A DNA stretch of 64,000 nucleotides from positions 43,507-107,506 of the forward strand of contig WHSR01000008.1 in the NCBI GenBank assembly GCA_009379995.1, read 5' to 3'. The notes under the pieces are model-generated. The model had not been told where the DNA came from and searched no databases. It saw only the letters and a program-made list of their open reading frames with translations. This DNA comes from Streptosporangiales bacterium (GTDB taxonomy: Bacteria; Actinomycetota; Actinomycetes; Streptosporangiales; WHSR01). Shown piece after piece: positions 47,563 through 53,041 of the stretch (position 1 is its first letter; the number at the start of each line of letters is the position of its first letter). A program made the translations under genes and the position numbers.

Positions 47563-50500
47563 TCACTCCGGGCAGGGGATCTCCTGCGGGGGTGTCGCGA
47601 CGGCTGTCGGGTCCTCACCGAGCTGGCCGCAGGTGCCAAGCCACCGAGCCTTCCCGTACTCGTCGGCGCGCATCAGCATGACCGCCTTGTCCAGCGGATC
47701 GCCGTCCGGGTCCGACCCGAAGTCGATCACCCCTCCGACGCCCGCCACCAGGTTGGTACCGGTCGTCAGCCTGATACCTCGCCACACCGCGAAGGCGTCG
47801 ATCTCGTCCGCGTCCGGTATCCGGATCAGCGTGTAGGTGAGCACGCTGGTCGCGTCGTACGCGAGCGCGGCCTGCTCGCTCGGCGCCGTCCCCTGCTGCG
47901 CCGCCGAGGCGCCGATGCCGCGGAGGTACGACCGATAGGCACCGTAGAAGCGCGGCCCCCGTCCCGCCTGCCAGGCGTCCGGTGTGGCCATTGTCGTGTA
48001 GTAGAGCGGGTTGCGGATCTCCGGCAGCGGCTGCGGGAAGGGCGGAAGGGACAGCAGGGCCAGGTCCTGCCCGCCCATGATGGCGACGTCCGGGTTGCAC
48101 GGCGCGTCGACGGTCGCGTTCAGCACCGTGTCCATGTGGTCGGCCCGGCCGGCGTAGAAGATCACGTCGGGGTCCTGCAGGCAGGCCCGGGAGACACGGT
48201 TGGCCAGTGTGTTGGTGACGTCGGGTCTGGAGGCGTCGTATGTCAGCCGTCCCGGCCACCGCAAGGTGTGCTTGCCGTCTTCGAACTCCTCCTCGAAGTC
48301 CCTCGCGAGGCTGCGGCTGTAGGTGTCGGTGGGGTCCTCGACGATGATCGCCGTGGTCGCGTCCAGCTCCTCCTTGGCGTAGGCGGCGGAAACGGCCGCC
48401 TGCCGGCGGTTCGGTACGCCGACCCGGAAGAAGTGGTCCGAGACGTTTCGGAAGGCGTCACCGGACGCGGTGGAGGCGATGGTCGGCAGCCCGGCCCGGC
48501 CGAGGATCCGGACGGCCTGCAGCGTCTCGCCGGTGCCGCTGCCGAGACCCAGGACCGCGACGATCGTGCGATCGCGCCTCGCCGCGCGCACAAGCTGCTG
48601 CGCTACATCGGCCGCGTGCTCGCCGGCGGTCCCGACGTTGGCGACCAGAACCCGCAGCATCGGGACGTGGCCCTCGTTGTTGTAGCGCTGCTGCGCCAGG
48701 TAGACGCCTTCCAGCTCGCTGCGTCCGGCGCTGGCCTCCTTGTTGGAGCCGTCGCCGGGCGCGGTCAGCGTGGTCATCACCACGGCGGTGAGGTACGGCC
48801 GTCCGGTCTCCGCGGACTGCCGCAGCACCTGCTCGTTCTGGTCGGCGATGCGGTTCTGTACGTCTTCGGTCGCCGGTTTGGCGAACACGTAGTCGTTGCC
48901 GTCGGTGATCCCCACGCACGGGCCGCTTCCGTTCCCGCCGGCGTGCCGGACGTGCAGTCCGTCGTTGACGGTCCTGTCGGTGACCACTGTCCACACGTCG
49001 AGCGGGCCGGCCGGGCCGCACGTCTCGACCGAGTACATGCGGTACGCACCCAGGTACAGGAGCAGCGGGGCGAGCAGGACGAATACCGCCGCTGCCCGCC
49101 ACAGCGCGCGGTGTGAGGTGCGGCGCGGGACGGGAAACGACTCGCTCTCGTCAGCACGGACGAGCGGGCGTTGCCCGTCCCCCGGCGGCGCGGCATCACG
49201 GGGCGGCTCCAGCGGGCGGATGAGCCGCACCGAGCGATCCGCCGGGGTGTACCGGCCGGCCGTGCGCTCTCCGGCCTCCACCTCGCTGAGATCCTCGGCC
49301 AGGCGCTCCAGCAGCTCGACAGACCACGGCGCGTCCGAGATAGGCGAGTACAGTTCCCCCGCGCGGTCGAGCAGGATGCCCAGCGGACTCTCGGCGCGGC
49401 GCCGCAGGAAGAAACGGCGGGAGCGGCGCGGTGACGAGGGTGCCCTGGCCACGGCGAGAAGCTCACCGCGCCAGGCCGGGTCGTCCGGATTTACCCGGGC
49501 CTCCAGCGCGCGCAGCACTGGCTGCACCTGGCCCCGCGCGAGCTCGTGGTAGAGCCGATCCACCATCGCCTCGGGACGCTCCTCGGCGACGACGGCGAAG
49601 TGGTCGTCCAGCCGGGCATGGATCCTCGAGTGGGACAGCGGCCCGTCGCGGTCGTCCCCCGCGGCGAGCTCGCGGATCAGCAGGTCCCGCAGCAGCGGGT
49701 GCATCACCAGCCGTCCGTCGCTGGCCACCTCGGTGAACGCGTGGCGGGCGAGCTCGTCCCAGACCTCCGCTGCCGATGTCCGCCCGCTGTCGTCGTCCGA
49801 GAGGCCGAGCGCCGCGCGCAGGGTCGGTGCGTCGAGGGCGCGAGGTGCCGCGCACGCGACGAGTATTCCGCGGTCCAGCCGCCTCCTCACCGGCTCGATG
49901 AAGCACTGCACCAGGTGGCTGCCGATCGACTCGCCAGACGACGGGTCATGCGCCCCGGACGGCAGCGGCTCGTCCATGAGGCGGCGGACGCCCAATCGCG
50001 GCGCACCCGGGCGGCGGCCGGCGAGCGCCTGGGTGACCAGATGGACGGCCAGTGGGTGCCCGTGCGTCGCCTGGAAGACCTCCTCGGCCAGGACCTCCCG
50101 CGACTCCGTCGATGGGCGGGGCCGCGGCGGCAGCACCAGTCGTCTGGTCTGCTCCCGGGTCAACGGAGGAAGGTCGATCCTGAGGAAGAGGCTCCCGATC
50201 GGGTAGTTCCGCTGGTCGCGGAAGCGGTGCAGGGCGTTCCGCCAGGAGGCGAGCACTTCGGCCGCGGTACCGGCCGGGTCGCCCGAGCCGGACGAGACCG
50301 GGAAAGGGCGCCCGGCGTGGCTCCACCACTGCTCGCCCGTGGCGATGAGCAGCAAGGGGTCACGGCTTCCGTTCGCCCGCTGCTCGGCCAGCATCTCCAG
50401 CAGGCGGAAGCCCTGGCCGTTCGGCAGCCGGTCGATGTCGTCGACCAGGGCCACGCAGTACGTGGTCCGCAGCCGGGCGAGCGATGTCCTGTCCGGGTCG

Positions 50501-51216
50501 AAGGCGGCCCGCAGGTCGTCGAGGAACGCGGAGAGCAGGAGCTCGTCGAGGAGGGCGGCGTCCTGCGGGTCGCCGGTGTTGGCGAGCGCGCAGACCCTGC
50601 GGATGACGTCGCTGAAGTGCCGGCCTTCCGGCAGTTCGATCGCGTGTTGGCCTTGCTCGTACCAGAGAAAGCCGGTGTTGCGGTTGCGGCCCCACAGGAT
50701 CCTCCGGAGGACGGAGGGTCGGGTGAGTACGGCCGGGAGCAGCAGATTCACCAGCAAGTGCGCGGCGGCGACGAAGATGTTCTCGCGACCGGCGTCGCCC
50801 GGGACACGGAAGCGGCGGTTCAGCAGCGTCCTCAGCTGCTTCCTGATGCTCTCCAGATCCGGGTGTGCGCCGAGCTTCGGCGCGATCTCGCGCATCCACC
50901 GGCACAGCTCGTAGCGCGGGAAAGGGATCAGGCCGCACTGCGGGTTGCGGTCCGAGGCCAGCTCCTCCTGGAGGGAATCCAGCAGCTCGGGCAGGGAACT
51001 CGGCCCGCTCTCTGGGTTCACCCGCACTCGGGCGCAGGTGAGCGGGTCTTTGCCGCGGGAGTAGAGGTAGTCGAGCAGGCGGGTCTTGCCGCTGCCGCTC
51101 GGGCCGTAGACGACGACGATCGGGAGCGGCTCGGTGCCGGCCCGGTCAGCCAGGTAGAGCCGCTCGAAAAGGGCAACCGGGACGGGTCGATCGACGAAAA
51201 TCCCACGCTGATCCAA
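47563..51216 (-). CDS. NTPase - transmembrane - periplasmic-binding-protein fusion
   Basis: A 1217-residue protein. The TTG at 51216 follows a GGGGAGGGG site and is preferred; the frame extends upstream but overlaps the MerR gene. Residues ~25-400 are a P-loop NTPase: VVVYGPSGSGKTRLL (Walker A, 38-45), CVALVDDIDRL (Walker B, about 250-258), LLLIATG (sensor). Residues ~400-600 are helical with a winged-helix-like RLVMHPLLRDLLIREL. One membrane helix lies at about 705-725 (AAAVFVLLAPLLLYLGAY). Residues ~730-1217 match type I periplasmic binding proteins of ABC uptake (SELEGVYLAQQRYN, VAVLGLGSGTGETLQAV, AIIVEDPTDTYSRSLARDF, QAALAYDATSVLTYTLI). It looks like a one-component membrane receptor. Confidence 0.8.
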   Translation of the reverse strand: MDQRGIFVDRPVPVALFERLYLADRAGTEPLPIVVVYGPSGSGKTRLLDYLYSRGKDPLTCARVRVNPESGPSSLPELLDSLQEELASDRNPQCGLIPFPRYELCRWMREIAPKLGAHPDLESIRKQLRTLLNRRFRVPGDAGRENIFVAAAHLLVNLLLPAVLTRPSVLRRILWGRNRNTGFLWYEQGQHAIELPEGRHFSDVIRRVCALANTGDPQDAALLDELLLSAFLDDLRAAFDPDRTSLARLRTTYCVALVDDIDRLPNGQGFRLLEMLAEQRANGSRDPLLLIATGEQWWSHAGRPFPVSSGSGDPAGTAAEVLASWRNALHRFRDQRNYPIGSLFLRIDLPPLTREQTRRLVLPPRPRPSTESREVLAEEVFQATHGHPLAVHLVTQALAGRRPGAPRLGVRRLMDEPLPSGAHDPSSGESIGSHLVQCFIEPVRRRLDRGILVACAAPRALDAPTLRAALGLSDDDSGRTSAAEVWDELARHAFTEVASDGRLVMHPLLRDLLIRELAAGDDRDGPLSHSRIHARLDDHFAVVAEERPEAMVDRLYHELARGQVQPVLRALEARVNPDDPAWRGELLAVARAPSSPRRSRRFFLRRRAESPLGILLDRAGELYSPISDAPWSVELLERLAEDLSEVEAGERTAGRYTPADRSVRLIRPLEPPRDAAPPGDGQRPLVRADESESFPVPRRTSHRALWRAAAVFVLLAPLLLYLGAYRMYSVETCGPAGPLDVWTVVTDRTVNDGLHVRHAGGNGSGPCVGITDGNDYVFAKPATEDVQNRIADQNEQVLRQSAETGRPYLTAVVMTTLTAPGDGSNKEASAGRSELEGVYLAQQRYNNEGHVPMLRVLVANVGTAGEHAADVAQQLVRAARRDRTIVAVLGLGSGTGETLQAVRILGRAGLPTIASTASGDAFRNVSDHFFRVGVPNRRQAAVSAAYAKEELDATTAIIVEDPTDTYSRSLARDFEEEFEDGKHTLRWPGRLTYDASRPDVTNTLANRVSRACLQDPDVIFYAGRADHMDTVLNATVDAPCNPDVAIMGGQDLALLSLPPFPQPLPEIRNPLYYTTMATPDAWQAGRGPRFYGAYRSYLRGIGASAAQQGTAPSEQAALAYDATSVLTYTLIRIPDADEIDAFAVWRGIRLTTGTNLVAGVGGVIDFGSDPDGDPLDKAVMLMRADEYGKARWLGTCGQLGEDPTAVATPPQEIPCPE

Positions 51217-51272: not shown

Positions 51273-51689
51273 TTAGAGTAATCGACCGGATACCGTCCCT
51301 TTTGGCCTCCTCGGTCGCATGCCGGATACGAAACGGGATACGTCCGGTCTCTCCTCCCGCGCCGCGAGCAGTCGTAGCGCCTTTTCCTTCTCGAAGTCGA
51401 GCGCCCTGGCCAGTGGGGGACCCAGTCTGCCCACGCGCTCCCCGAGTTCGCGCACGGCGGCCTGGACCTCCGGCTCGCACAGCACCCGCAGCCCGAACGC
51501 GAGCTCGGCGGGGCTGATGTCGTAGCGCCTCTCCACGGCCAGGGCAAGGGCCACCGCGTGCAGCTCGGCGTCGCCGAAGCGGCGGTGACCTCCTCCTTCC
51601 TTGGTGGGCGGCAGCAGGCCGAGCCTTTCCCGGTAACGCAGCATGCGCGGCGACGTGCCGAGCCGCCTCGCCGCCTCCGTGATCCGCAT
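51273..51689 (-). CDS. MerR family transcriptional regulator
   Basis: A 138-residue protein with the MerR winged helix: [25 protein letters not shown] (residues 2-26) and [17 protein letters not shown]. No metal-binding Cys follow, so it is not a metal sensor; the C-terminal ~60 residues are helical and Arg/Glu-rich. It is 56 bp upstream of the large NTPase/PBP gene on the same strand and divergent from ahcY. A palindrome in the gap is its likely operator. Confidence 0.85.
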
Positions 51690-51698
51690 GGGTCAATA

Positions 51699-51716
51699 CT
51701 GACAAATCTGTGTCAG
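51699..51716. promoter_or_regulatory. Palindrome CTGACA-AATCTG-TGTCAG, likely MerR-type operator
   Basis: Perfect 6-bp arms with a 6-bp spacer, 10 bp upstream of the MerR start and 53 bp upstream of the ahcY start. MerR-family dimers bind such dyads in divergent promoters, so it may couple the receptor gene, its regulator and ahcY. Confidence 0.55.
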
Positions 51717-51769
51717 AAATGGCAGTTGTAGCGTGCATTTCGTTGCCGTGGGCACCTAGACTCCCGCGC

Positions 51770-53041
51770 ATGACCGATCTCCCTCGACACGACATCGCCG
51801 ACCCCAACCTGGCCGCCCGCGGCCGCAGCCGCATCGAGTGGGCCGACCGGCAGATGCCGGTGCTGAGCCAGATCCGCGAGCGGTTCGCCCGCGAGCAATC
51901 GTTCAGCGGACTACGGCTGGCCGCCTGCATGCACGTCACCACAGAGACCGCGAACCTGGTCCGTACGCTCCAGGCGGGCGGCGCGGAGGTCGCGCTGTGC
52001 GCCTCCAACCCGCTGTCCACCCAGGACGACGCGGCCGCCTCGCTGGTACACGACTTTGGCGTCAGCGTCTTCGCCCGCCGTGGGGTGGACCGCGACGGCT
52101 ACTACGCCCACATCAACTCCGCGCTCGACATCGGGCCGGACTTCGTCTTCGACGACGGCTGTGACCTCGTCAACACGCTGCACACCGAGCGCAAGGAGCT
52201 GCTCGACGGCATCAAGGGCGGGTGCGAGGAGACCACTACCGGCGTCATCCGGCTTCGCCAGATGGCCAAGGACGGTGCGTTGCTCTTCCCGATGGTCGCG
52301 GTCAACGACACCGACACCAAGCACATGTTCGACAACCGGTACGGCACCGGCCAGTCGACGATGGACGCGGTCTTCCGGGCCACGAACCTGCTGCTGGCCG
52401 GCAGGACGGTCGTGGTCGCCGGCTTCGGGTACTGCGGCAAGGGTGTTTCCGACCGTGCCCGAGGGATGGGCGCCAGCGTGATCGTCACGGAGGTCGACCC
52501 GACCCGCGCCCTCGACGCGCTCATGCAGGGCTTCCGGGTGATGCCGATGGGCGAGGCCGCCCGGCTCGCGGACCTGTTCGTCACCGTCACCGGGAACCGT
52601 GACGTGCTTCGCGAGGAGCACCTGCTCGCCATGAAGGACGGCGCGATCCTGGCCAACTCCGGACACTTCGACATCGAGATCGACGTAAAGGCGCTCGAGC
52701 AGTTGACCGCCGAGAAGAGGACCGGCGTTCGTCACCAGGTCGACGAATACCGGCTGAACGACGGCCGGCGGCTGTACCTCATCGCCGAGGGGCGGCTGGC
52801 GAACCTCGGGGCGGCCGAGGGGCACCCGGCGGCCGTCATGGACATGTCGTTCGCCGACCAGGCGCTCACCTGCGAGTGGTTGGCCAGGACCCACCAAGAA
52901 CTGCAGTCCGGTGTCTACGACGTACCCGAGATCATCGACAAGGAAGTCGCGAAGCTCAAGCTCGCCTCGATGGGCGTGACCATCGACGCGCTCACCCCGG
53001 CACAGGAGGAGTACCTGAACTCCTGGGAGCACGGCTCCTGA
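51770..53041 (+). CDS. ahcY: S-adenosylhomocysteinase
   Basis: A 423-residue NAD-dependent enzyme; ATG 51770 gives [18 protein letters not shown]. Conserved parts: [86 protein letters not shown] (NAD loop), [12 protein letters not shown] and [13 protein letters not shown]. It lacks the ~40-residue insertion found in longer bacterial forms. It hydrolyses S-adenosylhomocysteine to homocysteine and adenosine, relieving product inhibition of methyltransferases. The gap to the next gene is 28 bp. Confidence 0.95.

Follow-up and report, generated by a model that had tools for sequence, protein, structure and literature searches.

A predicted single-pass membrane receptor joining a NOD-type STAND NTPase to an outward-facing binding-protein domain

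Within a window of 64,000 nucleotides from a Streptosporangiales bacterium (assembly GCA_009379995.1, contig WHSR01000008.1, positions 43,507 to 107,506; coordinates below are those of the window, that is, of the whole stretch analysed), one minus-strand gene encodes a STAND-type NTPase, a single membrane helix and a type I periplasmic binding protein (PBP) in one chain, which we interpret as a probable transmembrane receptor. The gene runs from 51216 to 47563 as a single frame of 1217 codons with no internal stop and a TTG start at 51216; the plus strand of 47563–51216, read from its first base, has two stops. An initial annotation of this stretch had proposed a 1217-residue product with these three parts without giving a strand, and the unbroken minus-strand frame bears it out. 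The TTG start is supported by an alignment in which six full-length relatives share its first residue and by a GGGGAGGGG stretch seven bases 5′ of it, and the codon-position G+C of the frame is of coding type (0.72/0.54/0.86, computed on a 1485-codon form extended upstream). Since these six proteins, found by protein search and 48–62% identical, show the same order of parts in the alignment, the layout is not an accident of assembly. The parts of the gene are placed as follows.

47563..51216, minus strand: whole gene, NOD-type NTPase, single membrane helix and type I binding protein, 1217 residues, TTG start
49432..51216, minus strand: NOD core, residues 1–595 (P-loop domain, helical domain, winged helix and following helices), from structure model and fold matches
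51082..51105, minus strand: Walker A GPSGSGKT, residues 38–45
50722..50778, minus strand: second hydrophobic stretch, residues 147–165, between Walker A and Walker B, of low confidence in both models
50431..50457, minus strand: Walker B CVALVDDID, residues 254–262 (VDDID at 258–262)
50047..50061, minus strand: GHPLA motif, residues 386–390, in 11/11 fused rows
49684..49701, minus strand: HPLLRD motif, residues 506–511, at the end of the winged helix
49051..49107, minus strand: core of the membrane helix, residues 704–722, with more lysine and arginine on the NTPase side
47629..48867, minus strand: predicted type I periplasmic binding protein fold, residues 784–1196

Fold and motifs file the inner half as a STAND NTPase of the NOD type, with putative switch behavior. 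In a structure model of the N-terminal half (pLDDT 80.0, pTM 0.82), about 600 N-terminal residues resemble the NOD core of STAND proteins (NLR resistosomes, CED-4 and Apaf-1); the fold matches listed span model residues 1–595, and the alignments to NRC4, CED-4 and Apaf-1 end at residues 559, 595 and 673, respectively. The P-loop and Walker B sit in a nucleotide-binding domain whose strands and alpha/beta fold appear in the model; a helical domain and a winged helix follow it (model elements at 431–519), and Pfam places AAA_22 at 33–136 (E = 2e-8). A nucleotide fold, Walker motifs at 38–45 and near 255, and a winged-helix-like segment had all been proposed from the sequence beforehand, and each has its counterpart in the motifs and the model; of the broader label “STAND/AAA-like,” the STAND part stands and is narrowed to the NOD type. 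GHPLA, which we take to be the GxP-type motif of STAND proteins, occurs in all 11 fused proteins aligned, and its proline is retained in 25/27 rows from relatives in which the NTPase is a separate gene (the split form, below). HPLLRD lies at what is presumably the place of the MHD motif; HPLLR is present in 11/11 fused rows, and its histidine in only 6/27 split rows. The Walker A lysine is replaced in 8/38 NTPase rows, suggesting that nucleotide binding rather than turnover may be the property that matters.

No effector domain was found in the protein, including N-terminal to the NOD, and Pfam gave no caspase match in the window protein up to E = 1. PADLOC profiles of anti-phage defense gave no convincing match (best E = 0.028, to the P-loop region only), and the NCBIfam and PADLOC scans together yielded nothing useful except that the relative P0026 matched kinase and LivK-type profiles and that P0032 and P0034 showed weak matches in the P-loop.

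KAP NTPases carry a hydrophobic membrane stretch inside the NTPase, between Walker A and Walker B, and the window protein is similar in having a hydrophobic stretch at 147–165 (Kyte–Doolittle mean 2.15, low pLDDT). It differs in that this is the sole such stretch within its NTPase and in that no KAP family profile matches it in Pfam up to E = 1. The stretch (50722–50778) lies within the NTPase domain of the fused clade and was not picked up in most split NTPases.

Topology is suggested by the residues around the membrane helix. The single membrane helix predicted near 715 was found as a hydrophobic helix at 704–722. Lysine and arginine are in excess on its NTPase side in 25 of the 26 proteins counted (ten of the 25 split binding proteins were left out), the exception being P0030, for which the script chose a stretch at residue 463, inside the NTPase. 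Six conserved cysteines lie on the side of the helix away from the NTPase. From this excess and these cysteines we infer that the N-terminus is inside the cell and the binding domain outside.

The outer half is modeled as a type I binding protein at about 784–1196, as the initial annotation had expected, and resembles the leucine-binding protein LivK and the ectodomains of mGlu receptors. A sequence search of the PDB matched a branched-chain amino acid binding protein at 825–979, and the chain contains a stretch that is LivJ/LivK-like by sequence. Pfam called no binding-protein family in the window sequence alone; in the relative P0030 it called AAA_16, Peripla_BP_6 and ANF_receptor in one chain, all above cut-off. 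What precedes the binding domain is 700 residues of NTPase and an internal hydrophobic helix, not the N-terminal signal of a secreted or lipid-anchored protein.

Together these parts, with NOD and flytrap folds both predicted by structure models, make it probable that the protein is a single-pass membrane receptor in which a small molecule outside the cell changes a STAND/NLR-type NOD inside. The earlier proposal of a one-protein receptor withstands two of the refuting conditions set for it, as a nucleotide fold is predicted in the N-terminal half and a membrane helix lies at 704–722; the receptor role itself is interpretation. The predicted binding-protein domain would catch a small molecule outside the cell, possibly an amino acid or similar compound, and the bound ligand would drive exchange of ADP for ATP in the NOD. 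NODs might then assemble into a ring at the membrane, by analogy with STAND assembly, and would recruit a partner protein for output, a step that we propose because no effector domain was found in the protein itself.

STAND/NLR switches are known to sense things inside the cell, and their sensors are repeats in the same compartment as the NOD. The window protein shares with STAND NTPases (MalT, PH0952, Apaf-1, CED-4 and plant NLRs) the P-loop, helical domain, winged helix and following helices, the GHPLA and HPLLRD motifs, and a putative sensor C-terminal to the NOD, here the binding-protein domain at 784–1196. Unlike in those proteins, this sensor is placed by prediction on the far side of a membrane helix, outside the cell, and nothing like an N-terminal effector was found. 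Passages of PMC6468293 describe STANDs as ADP/ATP-driven switches that assemble into multimers and name LRR, WD40 and TPR sensors. STAND switches are already known, and what appears to be new here is a sensor predicted outside the cell. If true, this would extend the NLR-type switch to transmembrane signaling through one helix, in a bacterial protein resembling a hybrid of an NLR and a glutamate-receptor ectodomain.

A survey of proteins and genomes for the same fusion, as had been suggested for genomes, recovered other full-length fused proteins and a split, two-gene version in other actinomycetes. Beyond the six full-length relatives, later protein searches turned up P0030 and P0033 together with two shorter proteins, P0012 and P0031; because each of these searches scored only the roughly 8000 candidates sharing most words, counts of relatives are lower bounds. 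Two scans of genome contigs found no relatives. Among the genome of the window and 60 others of its order, 36/61 have a match to the whole profile, and, the window gene aside, every match is confined to the membrane and binding-protein region, with no start before profile position 705. At class level, the whole profile matches in 71/394 genomes at E = 1e-20 and the NTPase half in 22/394 at E = 1e-15, with at most two candidates scored per genome. The 23 NTPase matches comprise the window gene, one fused relative (G346, locus L055), two fused genes with a worn-down N-terminus, one match (G076:C128) left out of the locus comparison, and 18 separate genes.

The split form keeps a fixed gene order. 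All 18 separate NTPase genes have a gene for a membrane-anchored binding protein directly downstream on the same strand. In 14 further loci (L105–L118), chosen for a mostly stand-alone binding-protein frame, the upstream gene is a clear NTPase in 7, a fragment in 1 and no NTPase in 6. The NTPase gene comes first in all of the resulting 25 split pairs (18 + 7), which strengthens the reading as a one-protein receptor, since the pairs place the NTPase before the membrane-bound binding protein just as the fused chain does. In one locus (L028:8565-12012), one NTPase gene is followed by two consecutive binding-protein genes, and in another (L105:9285-12506) the gene immediately upstream of the split pair encodes a NACHT protein that carries an NNH1 domain. 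L110–L114 have a binding-protein gene with no recognizable NTPase gene in the stretch fetched. A gene of 655–666 residues lies just downstream in L110, L112, L113 and L114, and a reversed order with the NTPase downstream was considered for L110–L114 and rejected, as the two such genes scanned (L110 and L114) encode M3 peptidases. No third gene was found that accompanies the split pair, and the neighbors of 34 loci, when clustered, formed groups spanning no more than 8 loci.

Trees of the two halves suggest that fusion or fission has recurred. Ten fused rows fall on one side of a branch in each tree (support 100/99 and 99/97), and the split rows likewise group together; L094 was excluded from the binding-protein trees for a wrong frame start. 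These first trees fitted a single origin of the fusion, an idea dropped once a further NTPase/binding-protein fusion, L185:525-4010 (G058:C181), appeared. It nests among split forms in both trees, as placed by a quick tree method and with a long branch in the NTPase tree, so that the trees require two or more events of fusion or fission. Depending on where the root lies, the two changes could represent two separate fusions or a fission together with a fusion. The Walker A motif of L185 has arginine in place of lysine. The conserved pairing and repeated fusion or fission lead to a concrete prediction, namely that a ligand outside changes the nucleotide state inside.

Three other explanations were weighed against the receptor. 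In the first, which we consider unlikely, the inner half is a nucleotide-binding scaffold and not a switch, the outer part binds ligand and signaling runs by clustering alone, and the NTPase is evolving toward the P-loop-less form of many relatives. Substitution of the Walker A lysine, noted above, would fit this, as would the first 20 relative loci, in which none of 21 binding-protein frames (3 of them stand-alone binding proteins) has a convincing Walker A. Short fused forms that have lost both the Walker motifs and the winged helix are common in the family and include the second copy in the genome of the window (C14, P0011). Against a scaffold, the window protein itself retains K44, both Walker B acids, GHPLA and HPLLRD, and the ten fused rows of the trees form one well-supported group, every member of which retains both Walker B acids, GHPLA and HPLLR. 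A second explanation, slightly less likely still, has the outer domain anchoring the protein in the cell wall or to a partner protein without binding any small molecule, and the NOD sensing inside as in classical STANDs; no ligand is known, and the helical stretch at 529–666 could sense inside the cell. Finally, it is very improbable that the protein is a tethered substrate-binding protein of an ATP-binding cassette (ABC) importer encoded elsewhere with the NTPase as accessory, as might be read from the source annotation of P0008 and P0009 (“ABC transporter substrate-binding protein”) and from 45 matches to BPD_transp_2, the family of LivH/M-type permeases, in the genome, since none of the 45 is on the contig of the window (C147), no permease was found among the 20 nearest-neighbor genes scanned, and the inner half matches STAND-type and not ABC ATPases. 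The earlier statement that no ABC permease is nearby therefore holds for the LivH/M type on this contig; other permease families were not searched.

Relatives with other inner modules place the predicted receptor in a broader set of proteins. Among 43 fused frames scanned with Pfam, 6 matched TIR_2, 6 matched DUF4062 and 4 matched Pkinase; these shares are not prevalences, because the frames were a selection of long binding-protein frames already available, to which L062 and L064 were added once their domains had been seen. L156 (L156:665-3601, 978 residues) has a TIR domain at 14–130, a kinase at 190–427 and a membrane helix near 492, followed by the binding protein. Individual scans found TIR fused to this type of binding protein, with no kinase match, in L171, L173, L180 and L182 (membrane helix checked in the first three and not in L182) and a kinase domain in L174 and L181; P0026 and P0027 are also kinase forms. 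Such swaps of TIR, kinase and DUF4062 make the membrane helix and binding protein look like one exchangeable sensor unit, and those of TIR and kinase suggest a wider receptor toolkit in actinomycetes. In one chain, L156 and L062:5540-9037 combine TIR, Ser/Thr kinase, membrane helix and the same type of binding protein, a Toll-receptor-like layout. A DUF4062-type domain is fused to the same membrane-helix and binding-protein module in L157, L158, L159, L164, L179 and L064.

One possibility, which we put forward tentatively, is that these proteins form an undescribed family of outward-facing receptors, each pairing an mGlu/LivJ-type flytrap with an exchangeable immune-type module (NOD, TIR, kinase, TIR plus kinase, or DUF4062). 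For receptors with a NOD, closure of the flytrap, for example on compounds that dying kin or competitors release, would nucleate a resistosome-like ring of NODs on the inner face of the membrane.

Some other proteins and systems share part of this design. In P0026, P0027, L156, L171 and L173, all found in this analysis, a membrane helix leads into a binding protein that belongs to the same profile family as that of the window protein, with a kinase or TIR domain in place of the NOD. In the two-gene EACC1 system, according to passages of Kaur et al. 2020 (PMC7159879), caspase proteins carry membrane helices and, beyond them, an extracellular PBP, which is one of up to 50 variable domains; the passages also mention an inactive iSTAND in other systems and do not describe the joining of a NOD to a PBP. 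The caspase proteins resemble the window protein as single actinobacterial chains with an extracellular PBP after membrane helices. As those passages present it, the inner part there is a caspase and the partner gene EACC1, whereas the window protein has no caspase match and its upstream gene encodes a MerR regulator (no EACC1 profile was searched). In the GlnH–GlnX–PknG relay of Corynebacterium, also an actinobacterium, an outside binding protein controls an inside signaling enzyme, but that relay, as passages of PMC9769921 describe it, consists of three separate proteins with a kinase output, and GlnX has four membrane segments. Among passages of the open-access literature reached with the terms used, none was recognized in which a STAND NTPase is linked to a periplasmic binding protein.

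The MerR gene precedes the receptor gene on the same strand (51273–51689), as had been pointed out, and is unlikely to be its partner or output. A MerR match at E = 1e-10 is found in 37/41 genomes, that of the window included, and in 8/8 relatives fetched around this match PGM, SIS, MerR and SahH stand in the same order with no match to either receptor half. Conservation of this core block without the receptor makes both MerR and SahH unlikely partners. The 20 nearest-neighbor genes scanned with Pfam are diverse, and a DrrA-type ABC ATPase lies near L101. The window gene and the fused relative L055 each have a PALP enzyme nearby; the two enzymes are unlike each other, and neither recurs in the 69 loci searched. 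SahH of the window (51710–53041) is only 38–40% identical to the protein in the same place in 8/8 relatives, compared with 48–73% for SIS, PGM and SpoIIM of the block where matched, which points to a possible replacement of SahH.
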